Positions 7,336-39,218 of a stretch of 47,249 bases of DNA are shown here, in pieces. The notes below the pieces were generated by a model. The model was given only the letters and a program-made list of their open reading frames with translations. It ran no database searches and was not told the origin of the DNA. The position numbers were made by a program, and so were the translations under genes. Numbering within the stretch: the first letter of the stretch is position 1; each line of letters starts with the position of its first letter. The stretch lies in the IMG/VR virus record IMGVR_UViG_3300048546_000558, positions 1 to 47,249 of that record. One strand, 5' to 3'. The DNA is from a virus.

Positions 7336-7364
7336 ATTATATAACACTCAAAACATCTTGTCAA
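7336..7364 (-). promoter_or_regulatory. Consensus sigma70 promoter of the hldD operon
   Basis: On the minus strand TTGACA (7364-7359) is followed by exactly 17 bases and TATAAT (7341-7336), a perfect match to the host vegetative consensus, 21 bases from the hldD ATG. This suggests host-sigma-dependent, early expression of the five-gene sugar operon. Confidence 0.85.
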
Positions 7365-7372
7365 CAATTAAC

Positions 7373-7380
7373 TATAAATA
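7373..7380 (+). promoter_or_regulatory. T4-type late promoter for the ALAS/bilin reductase operon
   Basis: An exact TATAAATA on the plus strand, the T4 late promoter element recognised by gp55-type sigma factors. It is the only strong plus-strand promoter element before the ALAS gene. Transcription would begin near 7386, leaving a leader of about 135 bases before the ALAS ATG. Confidence 0.7.
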
Positions 7381-7385
7381 TAACT

Positions 7386-7571
7386 ATGCTAAAGTACATC
7401 AAAGAATGGATAGAAGACTACAATGCCGTTCAGCGTGAATTCAATGAAATGGGATACTTTACTATAAGTACATGGTCTGGTTCATGGACTCATATTGATA
7501 AAGAAATGTATAAAGAGTACAATGATAGACAAAAACAAATTTCAAAGTGTAATAGACAACTTAAAGAGTAG
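7386..7571 (+). CDS. Small hypothetical protein upstream of ALAS
   Basis: A 61-residue ORF starting MLKYIKEWIEDY, rich in charged and aromatic residues (three Trp, five Tyr) and with no family I recognise. Composition is protein-like, but its ATG sits 6 bases after the late promoter element, so from that promoter it would be leaderless. It overlaps the ALAS gene by 50 bases in another frame. It may be a real small phage protein read from upstream transcripts, or its translation may couple to or dampen ALAS expression. Confidence 0.45.
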   Translation: MLKYIKEWIEDYNAVQREFNEMGYFTISTWSGSWTHIDKEMYKEYNDRQKQISKCNRQLKE

Positions 7572-8706
7572 TGGTAATTATAGAGTATTTAACGACATAC
7601 TCAGAGAGCGTGGAGAATACCCGCAAGCAATCTACTACGGGCCTTACAATATTAAAAACATTGTAAACTGGTGTAGCAATGATTACTTGGGTATGGGTCA
7701 GCACAAAGTTGTACTAGATGCAATGCACACTGCATTAGATCAAACTGGAGCAGGTAGTGGAGGTACTAGAAACATAGGCGGTACTAGTCATTATCATGTT
7801 GCATTAGAATACGAACTGTCGAAATTACATAACAAGCCGTCGTCTTTGTTATATACAAGTGCTTATGTTGCTAACGAATGGACACTAATTGCACTTAGTA
7901 AAATAGTAAAAGACATTGAATTTGTAAGTGACAGTAAAAATCATGCTAGTCTTATACAGGGCATACGTCACAGTGGTGCACCAAAGCATGTGTTTGAACA
8001 CAACGATATGGATAGCTTAGAACAAGCACTAGCACAAGTTAAAGGTACAGCCTGTATTGTGTTTGAAAGTGTATACAGTATGGATGGATATACTAGCAAA
8101 CTATCGGAAATAGTTGCACTTGCCGAAGAATATAAAGCTATAACATATTGTGATGAGGTACATGCTGTTGGACTATACGGAGATACTGGTGCTGGATATT
8201 TGGAAAAACTTGGATTACAGGATCGTGTAGACTTTGTAAATGGAACACTGGGCAAAGCATTTGGTTGCCAAGGTGGATATATTACAGGTGACGATGTTGC
8301 TATAGATGCAATACGAAGTGTAGCAAGTGGATTTATTTTTACCACAAGTTTGAGTCCTGTTATATGTGCAGGTGCATTGAGTAGTATAAAATATTTGCGT
8401 AGTGAGCATGGAGTAGAGTTGCGTGAACAACATCAGAATCGTGCAACAAGACTAAAGAAAATACTTAGACACAAAGATATAAACATAATAGAAAATGATA
8501 CACATATCGTTCCTGTTGTAATAGGAGATCCTGTGCGTTGTAAACAAGCTAGTGACACATTACTAAATGATCACAACATCTATGTACAGCCAATTAACTA
8601 TCCAACAGTACCAGAAGGTACAGAACGGTTGAGATTTGCACCAACACCAATGCACAGTAACGCAATGATTAGTGATCTTGCGGAAAAATTAGAGGAAGTA
8701 TTATGA
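7522..8706 (+). CDS. hemA: 5-aminolevulinate synthase (ALAS, Shemin pathway)
   Basis: A 394-residue PLP-dependent alpha-oxoamine synthase. Signature segments of ALAS are present in order: WCSNDYLGMGQH, GSGGTRNIGGTSHYH, CDEVHAVGLYGDTGAG, and GTLGKAFGCQGGYITG, whose Lys245 would carry PLP. ALAS condenses glycine with succinyl-CoA to 5-aminolevulinate, the first committed step of tetrapyrrole synthesis in alphaproteobacteria and mitochondria. WCSNDYLGMGQH and the GTRNI segment favour ALAS over KBL or BioF relatives. I take the ATG at 7522, preceded by AAAGAG, over a TTG at 7495. The stop overlaps the ATG of the bilin reductase (ATGA), so the two are coupled. Cyanobacteria and most gammaproteobacteria make ALA from glutamyl-tRNA, so this gene points to an alphaproteobacterial host. 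Phage-borne ALAS has been reported in aquatic metagenomes. Confidence 0.92.
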   Translation: MIDKNKFQSVIDNLKSSGNYRVFNDILRERGEYPQAIYYGPYNIKNIVNWCSNDYLGMGQHKVVLDAMHTALDQTGAGSGGTRNIGGTSHYHVALEYELSKLHNKPSSLLYTSAYVANEWTLIALSKIVKDIEFVSDSKNHASLIQGIRHSGAPKHVFEHNDMDSLEQALAQVKGTACIVFESVYSMDGYTSKLSEIVALAEEYKAITYCDEVHAVGLYGDTGAGYLEKLGLQDRVDFVNGTLGKAFGCQGGYITGDDVAIDAIRSVASGFIFTTSLSPVICAGALSSIKYLRSEHGVELREQHQNRATRLKKILRHKDINIIENDTHIVPVVIGDPVRCKQASDTLLNDHNIYVQPINYPTVPEGTERLRFAPTPMHSNAMISDLAEKLEEVL

Positions 8707-9377
8707 GCGAAATATGGGATAAACTTATCGATTGCGAACAAAAGATTATTGCGAAATGTGCTAGTTTAGGCAAAGAAAATTTTGACGATCCAGAGTTCGA
8801 TTGGCTTAATAAAGTATACCAAGGTGAACATTTTAGACGAGCACATATAGATAGTGTAGATGCTAGAGACTCAAAAGGTTTGTATATGACTCATATATGT
8901 GTGTTTCCAAACTTTGATAACGATGCTCCTATATACGGATTTGACATTATTGCAGGTAAAAATAAAGTTACTGGTGCATTCCATGACTATTCGCCTACAA
9001 TAGATTGGCATCATCCTATGTGTAACTTGTTTAGAGATTGTGTAGAAGACTTAGAATGGAAAAAACAACGTGAACTTCCTCCGTGGGCACAAGCAATATT
9101 CAGCAAACATATGGTAGCCGCAAGTAATGTAAAAGCAGATGAAATGGATCAAGTTGTTACTATGGCATTAGACAACTTAGACATGTACTTTGAAGAGTTA
9201 CCTAAATATACAAATGCTCGCTTTAATCAAAGTGTAATACGGGATCAACAAAACAGATACTGCCATTATCAAAAACAAAACCCACATACACCCAAAGCTA
9301 TGGAAGCACTCGGACTTGATCCGGATGACATACGACACTTTATCCAGGATTGTTTATTTCCAGAAGTTAGTTCTTAA
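8703..9377 (+). CDS. pcyX: Ferredoxin-dependent bilin reductase, PcyX/PcyA-like
   Basis: A 224-residue FDBR-family protein. Conserved segments include HIDSVDARDSKGL, MTHICVFP, PIYGFDIIAGKNKVTGAFHD and YCHYQKQNPHTPKAM. Asp81 in GFDI fits the central catalytic Asp of the family (Asp105 in PcyA and PebS). His64 lies 17 residues before it, the spacing of PcyA His88 to Asp105, and Asp181 is a candidate second catalytic Asp. FDBRs reduce biliverdin IX-alpha with ferredoxin electrons. PcyX enzymes from marine phages of presumed alphaproteobacterial hosts yield phycoerythrobilin, and that is the best guess here. It overlaps ALAS by 4 bases, and its 3-prime end runs 11 bases into the convergent carbamoyltransferase. 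PcyX rather than PcyA or PebS is inferred from context and residues, not from a tree. Confidence 0.88.
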   Translation: MSEIWDKLIDCEQKIIAKCASLGKENFDDPEFDWLNKVYQGEHFRRAHIDSVDARDSKGLYMTHICVFPNFDNDAPIYGFDIIAGKNKVTGAFHDYSPTIDWHHPMCNLFRDCVEDLEWKKQRELPPWAQAIFSKHMVAASNVKADEMDQVVTMALDNLDMYFEELPKYTNARFNQSVIRDQQNRYCHYQKQNPHTPKAMEALGLDPDDIRHFIQDCLFPEVSS

Positions 9378-13101: not shown

Positions 13102-13109
13102 TATTTATG
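13102..13109 (-). promoter_or_regulatory. Late-type promoter element (CATAAATA)
   Basis: Seven of eight bases of TATAAATA on the minus strand, about 50 bases before the ATG of the 248-residue protein and overlapping the stop codon of the preceding gene. Confidence 0.5.
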
Positions 13110-14511
13110 TCCATGATATCTGTACCATTCCAGCTCTACCAGTATCACCTTTGTGATTGTTGTTTCCACCCATGACGTGCGTATAAGAGCCGCCATGTCC
13201 TGGATGCCAATTCCAACTACTACCATTACAGCCACCGCAACAACAGTTACTTGAAAAACCTACATAGTAACAACCTACGCTACATGGAAATTCAGCACCT
13301 GTATCTGCATCAATAATTGGTGGTCTAGTTTGATAACCATAATTGTTGCTGTCTAAACAGCCGCCGCCTGTGAGGCTTCTGTGGGTTAATTCAGGTCCAT
13401 CAGCAACTTTACAAGCTGTGGTTGCACAACTACATCCGCATGTTTGACAACAATCAGGGACTGTTGGGACTTTTCCGCATGTTCCACAGCTACTAGCAAA
13501 ACAATAATATCCATAACTACACCAACATGGTCCTGAATCATTACACCATAGTTGTTGAAATCTTCTACAGTTTCCGCCATTTCCAACTGTTTGTCTAGCT
13601 GAGTTCAATGCCGCACAAGGTGCATCACCTGAGTAGGCTCCATCTGCTTTAAAACAGCAAATTCCATTACCAGTTACACCACTCATACATCCATATCCTG
13701 GATCTTGACCGGAACAACACCACATTTGACAACTACAACCAGCACATACTGAGTATGTATCACCTGCTGTAACTTTAATTTCTATTTCTGAATATGCACC
13801 AGTAGGTGCAAATGGATGTCCACCACAGCAACAGCCTGGATTACTTCCTTTACCTGCACCCCATGCTTGGAATTTTGCCACTGTGGCACCAGCTGGCACT
13901 GTCCATGTACAAGTTGCTCCAACTCCACATTTCCATGTTGAGCCGCTACCACAAACTTTAACATAGTTTGTTTCACTTAATCTTTTACCTTGCGATCCGC
14001 CGCCTGAACTAACGCCATACCAATTTTCAAGGATAGTAGTAGCTCCAGCGGCAGTAAAATCAGCTTGTAAACCCAAGTATGCATAATACCAATCATCGTC
14101 AAAAACTGAATTATCTAATATATATGCTCTATTAATTAATTCATCTTGAGCAATTATATTTTGTCTATGACTGGTTTTAGTTACAGTTGTTCCGCCACCT
14201 GATGCTAATATACTACCATCAGTCCATACATTATTACTGCCCCAGTTACATGTACAACTTGTTCCACTACCTGCATAAGCACATTCACAATCTGATATTT
14301 TATTAGGATCTGACAAATCACATAAGCTACCGCCACCGCCGCCGCCACCGCCGGAGTAAAATTCACCACCATTTGGATTAGCTTCTATATGTGCTTTCAG
14401 ATATGCTTTAATTGAAGTTCCTAAGATCTTATTCCAAGGCGTTTTAGTAGACGAAGCTACTATCTGTTCAGCAAATTTTTCTGATGCGTTTTGTACTAGT
14501 AAGTCTGCCAT
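13105..14511 (-). CDS. Cysteine-rich putative tail-fibre/adhesin protein (paralogue A)
   Basis: A 468-residue protein with about 40 cysteines (near 8.5%), many in clusters such as GCCCGG, MWCC, GICC and NCCCGGC. A Gly-rich spacer at ~residues 53-62 is followed by LCDLSDPNKISDCECAY. From ~residue 195, CTWTVPAGATVAKFQAWGAG opens a beta-rich domain whose layout matches glycine-rich fibre domains such as the 465-residue protein nearby, but with Gly loops replaced by Cys clusters. It ends HVMGGNNNHKGDTGRAGMVQISW. It is a clear paralogue of the next gene. Role as a virion adhesin is inferred from location; the cysteines may form disulfides after release or bind metal. No homologue with known function comes to mind. 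Confidence 0.7.
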   Translation of the reverse strand: MADLLVQNASEKFAEQIVASSTKTPWNKILGTSIKAYLKAHIEANPNGGEFYSGGGGGGGGSLCDLSDPNKISDCECAYAGSGTSCTCNWGSNNVWTDGSILASGGGTTVTKTSHRQNIIAQDELINRAYILDNSVFDDDWYYAYLGLQADFTAAGATTILENWYGVSSGGGSQGKRLSETNYVKVCGSGSTWKCGVGATCTWTVPAGATVAKFQAWGAGKGSNPGCCCGGHPFAPTGAYSEIEIKVTAGDTYSVCAGCSCQMWCCSGQDPGYGCMSGVTGNGICCFKADGAYSGDAPCAALNSARQTVGNGGNCRRFQQLWCNDSGPCWCSYGYYCFASSCGTCGKVPTVPDCCQTCGCSCATTACKVADGPELTHRSLTGGGCLDSNNYGYQTRPPIIDADTGAEFPCSVGCYYVGFSSNCCCGGCNGSSWNWHPGHGGSYTHVMGGNNNHKGDTGRAGMVQISWT

Positions 14512-14541: not shown

Positions 14542-15987
14542 TCATGTCGATACCCATGAAATTTGTACCATGCCTGCTCGTCCAGTATCTCCAAAGTGGT
14601 TTGTGTTGCCACCCATAACATGTGTGGGTGCTCCGCCATGTCCTGGATGTGTAGCCCAATCTCTGCCTAGACAACCTCCACAGCACGATCCACTAGTAAA
14701 TGTTTGACAGTTACAACCACATGACTGGCTCCAAGGAGCACCTGTATCTGAATCAATAATTGGAGGTCTTGTGTGAAAGCCATAATTGTTTGTATCTACA
14801 CATGTGCCGCCGTGTATTCCAAAGTGTCCACGAGTTGGACCATCTTTACCAGTAACTTTACATGAATCATTTATACAACTACAATATTGAGTATAACAGC
14901 AACCTGGGTATACAGGAACAACACCACATGTTGCACAACTGTTATCAAAACAATATTCACTATAGTTACACCAGCATGGTCCTGATTGTGTACAATAAGG
15001 GTTCATATTTTTATGACAAGCGCCACCTGCAAATCCACTTACTTGTGATCTCATATGGTTCATTTCAACACAGTTACCATTGTAACAATGACCACCATCT
15101 GCTTTTAAACAGCAAATTCCATTACCAGTTACACCACTCATACAGCCTTCACCTGGAAGATTGTTTGAACAACAATATCTTTGACAACTACAACCAGCAC
15201 ATACTGTATAACTATCACCAGGAGTAACTTTCATCACCGCTTCACTATATGCACCATTACTGCCCCATGGATTACCACCACAACAACAAGCACCGTTGGT
15301 ACCATAACCTGCTCCCCAAATTTGGAATTTTGCACAAGTTGCACCAGCTGGTACAACCCATGTACATGTAGCAGGTCCTTCTCCATACTTCCAGCCAGAG
15401 TCACATATTTTTACATAATCTGTATCGCTTAATCTTTTACCTTGTTGTTCAGCACTAGATCCGCCGCTTTGGGCTACGTTATACCAATTTTGAAGAATTG
15501 TTGCTTCGCTAGCCGCTGTATAATCATGGAATAATCCTAAATATTCAGCATATATTGCTTGTTCAACTATCGTTGTGTTTACAGCATATATTTTTGTTAA
15601 TGTACCAATAGTGTCAAAAGTCGTTGTAAAAAGAACTCGAATTTCACCTCTAGTTTTTTCTGCTATAGCAGACCCTGCCAATACACTTCCATCATTCCAT
15701 GGATTACTTGTATTACAAGTAGCAGTGTTAGATGTTCCAACTCCTGAATAGTTACATGCACACATTGATATTTTACAAGTATTTGACAAATCACATAAGC
15801 TACCGCCGCCGCTACCTCCACCGCCGGGAGTGTATGGTCCTCCGGAAACATTTCCATCAATCATTGCTTTAATGTATGCTTTCAGTGTTGTCCCGCCCAA
15901 AGCGGAGGTATAATCAATAGCTAACGAAGCTTGTTTTGTTGCATCAGCTTGATCTATTAATGTGTTGTGTAATAATACGTCTGCCAT
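14542..15987 (-). CDS. Cysteine-rich putative tail-fibre/adhesin protein (paralogue B)
   Basis: A 481-residue paralogue of the downstream gene with the same architecture: a short N-terminal helical part, Gly-rich hinge (TPGGGGSGGGSLCDLS), a middle region with RLSDTDYVKICDSGWKYG, then CTWVVPAGATCAKFQIWGAG and a long Cys-rich C-terminal half (GACCCGG, RYCC, GICC, GSCCGGC). I count about 40 cysteines. The two proteins agree best around VTGNGICC, RPPIID(A/S)DTGA and the terminal HVMGG to GRAGMVQISW, and differ in the loops between. Such a pair looks like tandem duplication with loop divergence, as seen in host-range adhesins. Function beyond virion/adhesin is not known. Confidence 0.7.
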   Translation of the reverse strand: MADVLLHNTLIDQADATKQASLAIDYTSALGGTTLKAYIKAMIDGNVSGGPYTPGGGGSGGGSLCDLSNTCKISMCACNYSGVGTSNTATCNTSNPWNDGSVLAGSAIAEKTRGEIRVLFTTTFDTIGTLTKIYAVNTTIVEQAIYAEYLGLFHDYTAASEATILQNWYNVAQSGGSSAEQQGKRLSDTDYVKICDSGWKYGEGPATCTWVVPAGATCAKFQIWGAGYGTNGACCCGGNPWGSNGAYSEAVMKVTPGDSYTVCAGCSCQRYCCSNNLPGEGCMSGVTGNGICCLKADGGHCYNGNCVEMNHMRSQVSGFAGGACHKNMNPYCTQSGPCWCNYSEYCFDNSCATCGVVPVYPGCCYTQYCSCINDSCKVTGKDGPTRGHFGIHGGTCVDTNNYGFHTRPPIIDSDTGAPWSQSCGCNCQTFTSGSCCGGCLGRDWATHPGHGGAPTHVMGGNTNHFGDTGRAGMVQISWVST

Positions 15988-32990: not shown

Positions 32991-32998
32991 TATTTAGT
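32991..32998 (-). promoter_or_regulatory. Weak late-type element (ACTAAATA)
   Basis: Six of eight bases of TATAAATA about 26 bases before the 897-residue fibre gene, overlapping the heme oxygenase stop codon. Confidence 0.35.
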
Positions 32999-33527
32999 TG
33001 TTTGAGACCGACATTTGTTGGAAAAGCTCAGTAGCAAAGTCAAAGCAAATTTTAGCTTCATCTGCCATACTGTCATCTAATTTTGTACGAATTCTATCTT
33101 TGAGTACACTGACTTCTTCGTCAAACTGATACATAGTTCCTTTGCCGGGTGTGCGTTTAGCAATCATTTGTCCGCCACTTAGATCTCCCATATGTCGCAC
33201 ATATATGTGTGCCATAAGTTTATCAGGATCTTCTTTGATAGTTAATAAGTGAGCCAAGTATTTTTCGACAACAGGATACATTGTAGGTGTATAGTCTGTT
33301 AATTTAGTTTCTAATTCTAATATATCAACATGTATTTTTGGAGCAATAATTACATCAGTTAGTTTATGTAGTCTTGCAAAATTTTCTAATACATTATATT
33401 GCGGATGTTGATTGTGTAAGAAGTCGCAGTAACGCTCAATACTAATTCCGCCCATTAGTTCTTTCACAAAATCTTGCCGTTCAGCATTTTTGTGATGTTC
33501 CCAAGTTAGTTCTTTAAGATTACTCAT
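32994..33527 (-). CDS. ho1: Heme oxygenase, compact
   Basis: A 177-residue HO-1-family protein. His12 in EHHKNAE is the proximal heme ligand by alignment to the H-x-x-A-E pattern, and residues 114-120 read GDLSGGQ, the distal helix signature, within AHIYVRHMGDLSGG. HO uses O2 and seven electrons to open heme to biliverdin IX-alpha, Fe(II) and CO; ferredoxin is the usual donor in bacteria. Cyanobacterial and many phage HOs are about 230-240 residues, so this is a short form lacking C-terminal sequence, yet the catalytic core is complete. With the PcyX-like reductase and ALAS on the other strand it completes a heme-to-bilin route. It has its own sigma70-like promoter and stands between a radical SAM gene and the fibre genes. 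Confidence 0.9.
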   Translation of the reverse strand: MSNLKELTWEHHKNAERQDFVKELMGGISIERYCDFLHNQHPQYNVLENFARLHKLTDVIIAPKIHVDILELETKLTDYTPTMYPVVEKYLAHLLTIKEDPDKLMAHIYVRHMGDLSGGQMIAKRTPGKGTMYQFDEEVSVLKDRIRTKLDDSMADEAKICFDFATELFQQMSVSNN

Positions 33528-33532
33528 ACTTT

Positions 33533-33560
33533 AATGTAGCACACTTCTTAGATTTGTCAA
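33533..33560 (-). promoter_or_regulatory. Sigma70-like promoter of the heme oxygenase gene
   Basis: TTGACA at 33560-33555, 16 bases, then TACATT at 33538-33533, preceded by TGC. The first twelve bases are identical to the GT9-gene promoter. The predicted start lies within a few bases of the ATG, so the mRNA may be nearly leaderless. Confidence 0.6.
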
Positions 33561-33575
33561 TAGATCTTTCCATTT

Positions 33576-34715
33576 TTAGTTGTTTAAACTGTGATAGATC
33601 ATTTGGATCTTTTCCATTTCTAGCCACCATGGTTCAAACTCTGGTCTTATGTCTAATATGTTTTGCTTTCTAATTTTATCTAAATTAGTTGTAAACCTAT
33701 AAAACAGTTCTTGTTCCTTTGGATCTTTTTTGCCTGCTAAAAATTGACTAGGCAAAACTGTTCTTGGATCTAGGTGTAGAGGTTTTGAAACATAACTCCA
33801 AGTATATTGAATATTGCGTTTAGGTTTATGTTGTTCATTTACTTTTTCTATAAACTTCAGACCAAGAGGATGTTGATTGTAATTTGCAGGATGTAATGTG
33901 TCTGTTACATCAACACGACCACATGCTTGCCCTAATTTAATAATATTTTCTTTAATCTGAGGCAACTCATATACTCCGCCTCTAACATATTTGTAGCAAT
34001 CATTTTCCCATGCATCTACACTACACAGTACTTTAAGGCGTGTAAATCTTTTTAGCATTGCTAAAATTTTATCATCAACAAGCGTAGTGTTTGTAATGAT
34101 ACGCATTTGCATATCAGGAACTTCTATAGATAGGAATTCAAGAAACTCTAAAGCATCTTCTTGGTACAAAGGTTCACCACCTGATATTTCAACTGCACCT
34201 AAATTTTTAAACCATTCAATTGGTATTTGTTTAAACCAGTCTGATCCTAATGTTTCGTGAGGGGCAATTTTAACATCTAAACGAGTGTCGCCTTGTAATG
34301 CCTTATTCATTTTTTGTTCATCTTTAATCCAACCAGTAGACCTTCTACTTGAACACATTGTACATTTTAAATTACATTTATTGCTAAAGTCAATTTTTAG
34401 AAAGAATTTATTGCCATGGTCAGTTAATCTATTAAGTTTATCTCTTTGACTGCCTGAATGCCTTTCACCTAATCTCTCTTGCATTTTTTCTTCGTCGATA
34501 CAAATACGACATAGCCCATTAGGCAATGGACCTGTTTCTAATTGACTGAACCTGTCGGGCCATTCTTTAGAAAGCACTTCAAATAAATGTTTAGGATTTT
34601 CTATTTGTAATCTATGCTCAGATGGATCACCGGATACACTACAACACACCTGTATTGCCCAGTCTTGTCTAATCCAAACGTGATTCTTACCTGCTTGACA
34701 CCAACGGCGTTCCAT
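33576..34715 (-). CDS. Radical SAM protein, phage type
   Basis: A 379-residue radical SAM enzyme. Cys114, Cys118 and Cys121 form C-x3-C-x2-C in SNKCNLKCTMC for the [4Fe-4S] cluster; ISGGEPLYQ is the SAM-binding GGE motif. The N-terminal 75 residues carry more cysteines (Cys6, Cys24-25, and CRIC at 69-72), which could hold an auxiliary cluster placed before, not after, the core. Related proteins of T4-like marine phages are called twitch-type radical SAM proteins and have no assigned reaction. Neighbours are heme oxygenase (downstream) and a subtilase 7 bases upstream. It is not HemN-like. Peptide or protein modification is possible but only a guess. Confidence 0.85.
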   Translation of the reverse strand: MERRWCQAGKNHVWIRQDWAIQVCCSVSGDPSEHRLQIENPKHLFEVLSKEWPDRFSQLETGPLPNGLCRICIDEEKMQERLGERHSGSQRDKLNRLTDHGNKFFLKIDFSNKCNLKCTMCSSRRSTGWIKDEQKMNKALQGDTRLDVKIAPHETLGSDWFKQIPIEWFKNLGAVEISGGEPLYQEDALEFLEFLSIEVPDMQMRIITNTTLVDDKILAMLKRFTRLKVLCSVDAWENDCYKYVRGGVYELPQIKENIIKLGQACGRVDVTDTLHPANYNQHPLGLKFIEKVNEQHKPKRNIQYTWSYVSKPLHLDPRTVLPSQFLAGKKDPKEQELFYRFTTNLDKIRKQNILDIRPEFEPWWLEMEKIQMIYHSLNN

Positions 34716-38057: not shown

Positions 38058-39218
38058 TTAGGTAAACTGAAGCTGATTTGTTGTAACAGCGATTTTGCTG
38101 AGGTAATCAGCCGCGTTACCAAGTGAGCTAGCTTGGTTAGAAAGTTCTACATAACCATAACGTGTCATGAAGCTTACTACTGGCTCAAATGTTTGTGGGT
38201 CAAGTACTGTTCCACTTGACATCAACGGAATGTATGGGCAATAGAACGCCGCGGCGTCTGTTTCTGTTGCACCTTTGTAACCAACAAGTACGTCATCGTT
38301 AGCCGCATACTGGTTTACATAAATTCTCATTGTGCCGTTCAAAGTACCTACAAATTTAGTATTTGTTGGTGCTTCAAAAGCGCCTTCAGTTGATCTTGCG
38401 AACGCTGAAGTTGTAGCACTTTGTAGTACTGTTAGTACTGTTGGGCTTACAACTGCCCAGTTACCTGCGCCACGTCTTGTTCTTGCGGCGATGGTGTTTG
38501 CATTCTTGTTGATAAGAACTGCAAGAGCGGCATGCTCGTCACCTACGAATGTAGCTGTACCTGATACTGCACCTTGTGCATATGTATCAGCGGCTGCACC
38601 GGCAAGTGAATTCAAGCTAGCAATGATTTCTTGGTCGATTTCAGCAGTAATCTCTTGTGCAAGTGCTTGCATGATTTCTGCTTCAACGTCCAAGCCATGC
38701 ATTGATTGTGCGTCTTGAGCCGCTTCAAAAGTCCAGCGAGCTGATAGCTTTCTGGTTTTTGCTTCGACTGTCTGCTTCAATACTTGAATTGACATTTTCT
38801 TACCACCAGTACCTTCTAGTACTGAAGTTGCGTCACCTCTGTTTGTTGTTGCATTACCTGAGTATCCAGTTGCGATTTGGAATGGGCTTAGTGCCTCATC
38901 ACCAGCTACAGCTGAGTCAAAAGTTTCTGCATAACGTACTCTCAGAGTATGAATTTGTCCAACAGGGCCTGTCATAGGCTGAACTCCAACGATTTCGTTG
39001 GCGATCACTGTTGGCATAACACGTCTGATCACTGGAAGAATAACCTTGTTAAGGGTTGCAATGTTTCCTGCGCCTGTTGCTCCACCAGATGCGGCCTCTG
39101 CGAGGTACGCTTTGGTGTTTTCAAGAACTGATTCCATTACTTGTTTTTTCGTTCCAGTAAGACCGTCAGTAAGAGCGGTTTTTGTTTCGCTCCAATTTTC
39201 CATTAAATTGTCTGCCAT
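38058..39218 (-). CDS. 23: Major capsid protein gp23
   Basis: A 386-residue T4-type major capsid protein: ATLNKVILPVIRRVMPTVIA, then EIVGVQPMTGPVGQIHTLRV are hallmark gp23 segments, and RYGYVELSNQASSLGNAADY closes the fold. T4 gp23 has 521 residues, so this is a compact form that probably lacks the insertion domain. A likely gp21 cleavage site (L/I-x-E) is L39-A-E41 before AASGG, which would leave a mature protein of about 345 residues. It follows gp22 by 11 bases and ends at the strong terminator. Identity is firm. Confidence 0.97.
   Translation of the reverse strand: MADNLMENWSETKTALTDGLTGTKKQVMESVLENTKAYLAEAASGGATGAGNIATLNKVILPVIRRVMPTVIANEIVGVQPMTGPVGQIHTLRVRYAETFDSAVAGDEALSPFQIATGYSGNATTNRGDATSVLEGTGGKKMSIQVLKQTVEAKTRKLSARWTFEAAQDAQSMHGLDVEAEIMQALAQEITAEIDQEIIASLNSLAGAAADTYAQGAVSGTATFVGDEHAALAVLINKNANTIAARTRRGAGNWAVVSPTVLTVLQSATTSAFARSTEGAFEAPTNTKFVGTLNGTMRIYVNQYAANDDVLVGYKGATETDAAAFYCPYIPLMSSGTVLDPQTFEPVVSFMTRYGYVELSNQASSLGNAADYLSKIAVTTNQLQFT

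Follow-up and report, generated by a model that had tools for sequence, protein, structure and literature searches.

A probably composite gene set for ALAS, heme oxygenase and a PcyX-like bilin reductase on a fragment of a putative marine jumbo myophage

Phage alaS genes accompanied by hemO and pcyA/X, arranged as intact or broken cassettes, were described by Wegner et al. 2024 (PMC11480375), so that the gene set, the vAlaS activity and the broken cassettes are already published; a preliminary description of the present DNA had correctly stated that phage ALAS and PcyX were on record from aquatic metagenomes. In that study, 5-aminolevulinate synthase (ALAS) activity was demonstrated for the homologue of the CB_2 phage, a related freshwater phage ferredoxin-dependent bilin reductase (FDBR) was shown to be PcyA, and the reason for bilin production by phages whose hosts are not cyanobacteria was left as an open question. 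Pelagibacter phage Mosig EXVC030M (MT647606), a 141 kb pelagimyophage, has adjacent heme oxygenase (HO) and FDBR genes, whose products are 43% and 45% homologues of those analyzed here, no ALAS match, and a capsid protein with only 37% identity. A putative ferrochelatase of Mosig encoded near this pair (L002:4354-5124) gave no match to the Pfam ferrochelatase model. The closest solved FDBR is PcyX_EBK42635 (PDB 5owg), which has an Asp at the position of PcyA Glu76, as does the FDBR of the present locus.

The stretch analyzed here (47,249 nt; hereafter the window) is a 47-kb fragment, putatively of a marine T4-like jumbo myophage, with a nearest long relative of 198 kb; as it is a fragment, genes missing from it are uninformative. 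Its major capsid protein showed 60-80% identity to 82 records (about 70% for the best among the matches listed). The matches listed within this 60-80% group were all jumbo phages of 284-470 kb, and the remaining matches shown, Mosig included, did not exceed about 37%. The portal protein was 47-55% identical to those of jumbo T4-like phages (PA5oct/GAP32/Atu_ph07 group), in agreement with the capsid (up to about 70%), and the same capsid type was found on related contigs of 198, 322, 335 and 364 kb. By capsid and portal, the window groups with jumbo phages rather than with pelagimyophages. A pelagimyophage origin was unsupported, given a capsid identity of 37% to Mosig versus about 70% to jumbo phages; the contigs of Wegner et al. 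were assigned to pelagimyophages via gp13 (PMC11480375), and the window was compared by capsid and portal instead. Searches of the window for Rfam families and tRNAs returned no match.

Table 1. Features of the window, with positions counted from its first nucleotide.
Feature	Position	Strand	Supporting observations
Consensus sigma-70-type promoter of the heptose/LPS operon, TTGACA-17-TATAAT	7336..7364	-	12/12 matches; adjacent to the ALAS late motif and pointing away from it
Motif TATAAATA upstream of the ALAS operon, resembling a T4-type late promoter	7373..7380	+	Conserved, positioned
61-aa ORF that leads the ALAS transcript and runs into the start of ALAS	7386..7571	+	Conserved in 12 relatives
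5-aminolevulinate synthase (ALAS), 394 aa, PLP lysine K245	7522..8706	+	TIGR01821, PDB matches, active-site columns, tree; intact ORF (ATG at 7522, stop 8704-8706)
Ferredoxin-dependent bilin reductase, PcyX-like, 224 aa; D50, H64, D81	8703..9377	+	PF05996, PDB 5owg, fold, own clade; intact ORF (ATG at 8703, stop ending at 9377)
Short-form heme oxygenase of 177 aa with H12 as proximal His and GDLSGGQ	32994..33527	-	PF01126, PDB HO matches, AlphaFold; intact ORF
HO sigma-70-type promoter: TTGACA, 16-nt spacer ending TGC, TACATT	33533..33560	-	10/12 matches, TG before the -10
Major capsid protein	38058..39218	-	Affinity with the jumbo T4-like group

The first enzyme scored 546.3 bits against the curated NCBIfam ALAS model (TIGR01821; cut-off 338.6), whereas it stayed below the cut-offs of the bioF (311 vs 426 bits) and kbl models (TIGR01822; 235 vs 493 bits), and its top PDB matches were bacterial and human ALAS. 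Full-length matches in 58 comparison genomes, all belonging to the class of a Rickettsiales-labelled MAG (presumably Alphaproteobacteria), formed two sets, ALAS at 45-56% identity and other alpha-oxoamine synthases at about 25-36%. The residues known in R. capsulatus ALAS as K248, H142, D214, H217, R21, N54, T83, T365 and R374 were all identical in the window protein, and the catalytic columns were invariant or nearly so across 109 phage and 30 bacterial sequences. Identification as BioF, Kbl or serine palmitoyltransferase was therefore rejected on curated cut-offs, PDB matches, identity sets and phylogeny. The ALAS assignment of the preliminary description thus stands, and the phylogeny it had proposed as a check grouped the protein as ALAS and not with BioF or Kbl, a single branch dividing phage from bacterial ALAS (SH-aLRT 99). 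The position of the heme-feedback residue His342 is an Arg in the window enzyme. As this His is rare in bacterial ALAS too (at most 2 of the 30 sampled sequences), its absence is no sign of deregulation in the phage and was rejected as a phage adaptation; being common in cellular ALAS, its loss is weak evidence for phage deregulation. A raised ALA flux is plausible.

The FDBR matched Pfam PF05996 with 71 bits (cut-off 31), its best PDB match being PcyX 5owg (E=4.6e-60) followed by PcyA (2.9e-15), and its AlphaFold model (pLDDT 91) has a fold matching both PcyA and PcyX. A PcyA identity was not supported, as the curated PcyA model gave 93.9 bits, under its cut-off of 206, and Asp (D50) replaces the PcyA Glu76; the equivalents of His88 and Asp105 are retained. 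PcyX is likewise without Glu76 (PMC10151467), and the D50 site would correspond to Asp55 of PMC11480375. Within the alignment, this position is Asp in the Mosig-side sequences and Glu in the freshwater phage FDBR group, the latter agreeing with the PcyA activity reported for freshwater phage CB_2 (PMC11480375). In the FDBR tree, where deep branches among phage sequences were poorly resolved, the window clade was separate (13 rows, support 92/92), and Mosig and the characterized PcyX, PcyX_EBK42635, fell in another clade, to which the window FDBR is about 50% identical. The reductase had been called PcyX-like, which holds as a statement of similarity, PcyX 5owg being nearest and Asp occupying the Glu76 position; as a placement it is less secure, the protein lying outside the characterized-PcyX clade in this tree with its poorly resolved deep branches. 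Because of this separation, phycoerythrobilin is a predicted product of the window FDBR, though a likely one.

The heme oxygenase matched Pfam PF01126 with 67.4 bits (cut-off 23), its residues H12, G114, D115, G118 and G119 were invariant in the alignment, and its AlphaFold model (pLDDT 93) showed the HmuO fold (TMq about 0.8). Domain, residues, fold and position, 23.6 kb away on the opposite strand, bear out the HO reported in the preliminary description, as do the expected residues found in ALAS, FDBR and HO its statement that all three enzymes keep their active-site motifs.

The ALAS and FDBR genes share the four nucleotides ATGA. ALAS directly overlapping FDBR was found in 28 other IMG/VR contigs, with FDBRs 74-95% identical to that of the window, and 17 of the 20 contigs read at the junction share the ATGA, an 8-nt overlap taking its place in the L028 group; the overlap reported earlier is thus kept among relatives, and the translational coupling it suggests is supported. 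Pairwise dN/dS values of 0.05-0.18 for ALAS, FDBR and HO indicate purifying selection. A 61-aa ORF between the late motif and ALAS, overlooked in the first reading, has homologues of 61-66 aa in 12 relatives, in which the protein pattern is maintained, and gave no Pfam or NCBIfam match. The operon adjoins a heptose (HldD/HldE-like) island, accompanied in many relatives by a carbamoyltransferase. The HO gene is syntenic in relatives, lying between a subtilase and a tail fibre gene downstream of the capsid. In the window, a Twitch-domain-like radical SAM gene (33576-34715, minus strand) stands between subtilase and HO; it is not found at that place in relatives. Both loci occur on one contig in G002, G016 and G029, with 20-39 kb between them and orientations that either agree or differ, so that all three genes are together on one contig in the window and these three assemblies (the G002 ALAS being cut by the contig end). 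The recurrence of the split in three other assemblies led us to reject a chimeric contig or assembly accident, and agrees with the earlier view that the enzymes belong to one virus.

In one subclade, a gene for a DUF454 (YbaN-like) membrane protein overlaps the ALAS start (L025:8407-8823), giving the order DUF454-ALAS-FDBR, and the upstream sequences of L020, L023 and L026 are similar to this region. Iron limitation raises DUF454 (PMC7970244), and DUF454 and heme oxygenase are among the co-occurring neighbours listed in PMC12282271.

Upstream of the ALAS operon, the late-promoter motif previously pointed out is kept as CTATAAATATAA(C/T)TATG in the 12 relatives having the 61-aa ORF. Bare counts of TATAAATA or TTGACA in the window showed no enrichment relative to shuffles, position and conservation alone being informative. 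The degenerate form WATAAATA occurs at seven sites in the window, fewer than in shuffles; all seven are found no more than 120 nt 5' of a same-strand gene, where 4.5% would be expected by position, and the genes behind them are the portal, further structural genes and the ALAS operon. Such a placement also applies to 5 of the 10 TATAAATA sites of the 198-kb relative. The portal, like the heptose/LPS operon, has a perfect consensus sigma-70 site. The TTGACA promoter proposed for HO was also recovered (-35 at 33560-33555, minus strand), and its -35, spacing and -10-like box are kept in 10 relatives despite the -10 variants TATAGT and TAAAAT. With about 5 nt separating the -10 from the ATG, transcription is predicted to start at or near the start codon, yielding a near-leaderless mRNA. 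Expression of HO from a host-type promoter and of ALAS-FDBR from a late promoter is thus a supported prediction, and expression of HO before ALAS and the PcyX-like reductase would fit the promoter types. A strictly early timing of HO may nevertheless be wrong, since the gene is co-directional with, and downstream of, late-motif genes on the same strand and may also be transcribed late.

Most other phage FDBR genes directly follow HO, sometimes with one gene between them. The window HO was 63-71% identical to the HOs of L162-L170, but for the FDBRs beside those HOs, identity to that of the window was no more than 46-50%. Conversely, the nearest HO-adjacent FDBRs, those of L027 (77%) and L034 (68%), are paired with HOs only 44% identical to that of the window. 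Accordingly, in trees of 31 matched phages the window clade joined the L248/L162-type sequences for HO (support 99/96) and L027/L034 for FDBR (100/99). Forcing the FDBR onto the HO grouping was rejected (delta lnL 271, AU p 2.6e-107), as was forcing the HO onto the FDBR grouping (delta lnL 57, AU p 1e-3); the groups were picked after viewing the first tree, so that these p-values are indicative, and the likelihood differences are large. This conflict between the two trees argues that the FDBR changed partners. The heme-to-bilin pathway had previously been termed split, which fits the distance between HO and the ALAS-FDBR pair; as an account of one broken cassette it is disfavoured by the AU tests, and a partner swap or replacement is the better description.

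The presumed ancestor would have carried an HO-FDBR pair and a separate ALAS, as in PBPT01000016.1 (L248; 335,231 bp), a contig from a Neomarinimicrobiota MAG that is most probably a phage sequence placed in a bacterial bin. This contig holds a capsid, ALAS and HO 78%, 68% and 67% identical to those of the window, with the order HO, nitrilase-like gene, FDBR (48%) and with ALAS elsewhere, near the presumed ancestral layout. On the simplest reading, the old FDBR would have been lost from such a state and another would have settled behind ALAS. The module would then be composite, with an ALAS and an HO that descend from the alaS and hemO common among phages and an FDBR of another lineage in place of the HO-adjacent one. 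L021 and L022 have an ALAS 93% identical to that of the window and an FDBR only 78% identical; the FDBR of L021 clusters with the HO-paired FDBRs of L027 and L034, a further sign of FDBR exchange behind ALAS. A cellular origin of the FDBR was rejected, the six matches in the genome collection all being HO-FDBR pairs, one on a jumbo-capsid contig and one a truncated pair in Shewanella. The latter (Shewanella surugensis NZ_JAKIKS010000069.1, recorded strain DSM 17177; L251:4453-5225) has an FDBR truncated to 74 aa; about 570 nt downstream, the other strand carries a fragment of an IS66 transposase.

Other phage HO-FDBR loci showed recurrent additional genes. In 17 phage loci (L184-L187, L189, L191, L193-L197, L203-L205, L208, L209 and L211), HO and FDBR are separated by a Trp-halogenase family gene (PF04820, 3e-93 in L184), so that a halogenated bilin or substrate is conceivable there, and a carbon-nitrogen hydrolase (nitrilase-like) gene separates them in eight (L165-L167, L172, L173, L176, L248 and L250). 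Hsp20 and ClpS genes were found just upstream of HO in 93 of the 136 HO loci (e.g. L192:9125-9983); a search for them in the window and its 198-kb clade mate gave no match.

The reading that we consider quite probable is that a marine T4-like jumbo myophage carries a composite three-enzyme tetrapyrrole module with the predicted activities, which would make a bilin with the heme supply sustained. ALAS and FDBR would be translationally coupled behind a T4-type late promoter, and HO would be expressed separately from its own sigma-70-type promoter within the head/tail region. The most likely use would be to keep up the heme supply while producing a bilin with effects on or inside the host. The preliminary description had noted no evident bilin-binding phage protein; in agreement, no phycobiliprotein or phytochrome domain exceeded its cut-off in the related contigs searched, including the 198-kb clade mate. 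Three weak phycobilisome matches fell short of the cut-off; they lie in open frames that are 756, 756 and 2199 codons long and were taken for chance. The search for ferredoxin and bilin-binding domains suggested earlier, run on relatives, was thus positive for one ferredoxin (Fer2, only in Mosig) and negative for a bilin acceptor; among the related contigs searched, only G067 had a Pfam ferrochelatase. Two tandem paralogues of the window (13105-14511 and 14542-15987, minus strand; 468 and 481 aa, 53% identical) contain 40 Cys each, against 0.8% Cys in other window proteins, and had no Pfam match. It would be a long shot that the locus runs two programmes, with HO made on a near-leaderless mRNA from a host-sigma promoter and ALAS-FDBR made late, and that the late bilin of the third-lineage FDBR is attached to a phage protein such as these two.

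Among the competing explanations, an ordinary vAlaS/HemO/PcyX gene set, in which gene order drifts and the ALAS-FDBR pairing has no functional meaning, retains an appreciable minority chance. The kind is already published (PMC11480375), and relatives differ in where, and on which strand, each of the three genes lies. However, the pairing and its overlap persist in 28 contigs (in the 8-nt form in the L028 group) whose proteins have diverged by about 25%, and the synteny and promoter of HO are kept; the layout is maintained, which does not imply a new function. It is rather unlikely that the genes serve iron and heme turnover, with HO freeing iron, FDBR clearing inhibitory biliverdin and ALAS replenishing heme. 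Such a role would suit the lack of a bilin acceptor in the related contigs searched, the occurrence of ALAS without HO or FDBR nearby, and the DUF454 gene overlapping ALAS in one subclade, DUF454 being tied to iron limitation (PMC7970244) and an HO neighbour (PMC12282271). Iron recovery would have no need for an FDBR, however, and the active-site residues of the FDBR are retained. Moreover, heme that is made and then cleaved yields no net iron, so that the ALAS-FDBR coupling agrees better with forming a product or replacing heme.

An ALAS-like protein that is in fact BioF or Kbl, or a chimeric contig, has a negligible probability: these enzymes share a common fold and the bioF and kbl models also match, but the curated cut-off is passed for ALAS alone, and both the phylogeny and the presence of the same split in three other assemblies stand against it.

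Compared with known systems, the module of the putative jumbo myophage shares the three functions with the hemO-pcyA-alaS island of Bradyrhizobium ORS278 (PMC11480375), likened here by description only, which is cellular, of PcyA type, and has a phytochrome gene. It is closest to the cassettes of Wegner et al. (PMC11480375), found in marine and freshwater phages, with which it has in common the same three enzyme families, the retained ALAS catalytic residues and, as in their marine phages, a PcyX-type FDBR. In the published broken cassette, hemO and pcyA/X are together with valaS nearby, whereas in the window ALAS and FDBR are coupled and HO lies far off on the other strand; the layout thus matches neither the contiguous cassette nor the one with hemO beside pcyA/X. 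Relative to those phages, of pelagimyophage affinity, the window also has a jumbo-type capsid and an FDBR of a separate lineage. In the papers searched, the main text of PMC11480375 among them, the ALAS-FDBR pairing, the lineage swap and the jumbo-phage placement were not described. The present locus brings the gene set into jumbo phages, contributes another FDBR lineage and offers promoter predictions. That the reductase is joined here to ALAS instead of to HO, and is kept so with purifying selection acting on the genes, suggests a joint importance of ALA supply and bilin reduction, and heme breakdown solely for iron accounts for this pairing less easily.
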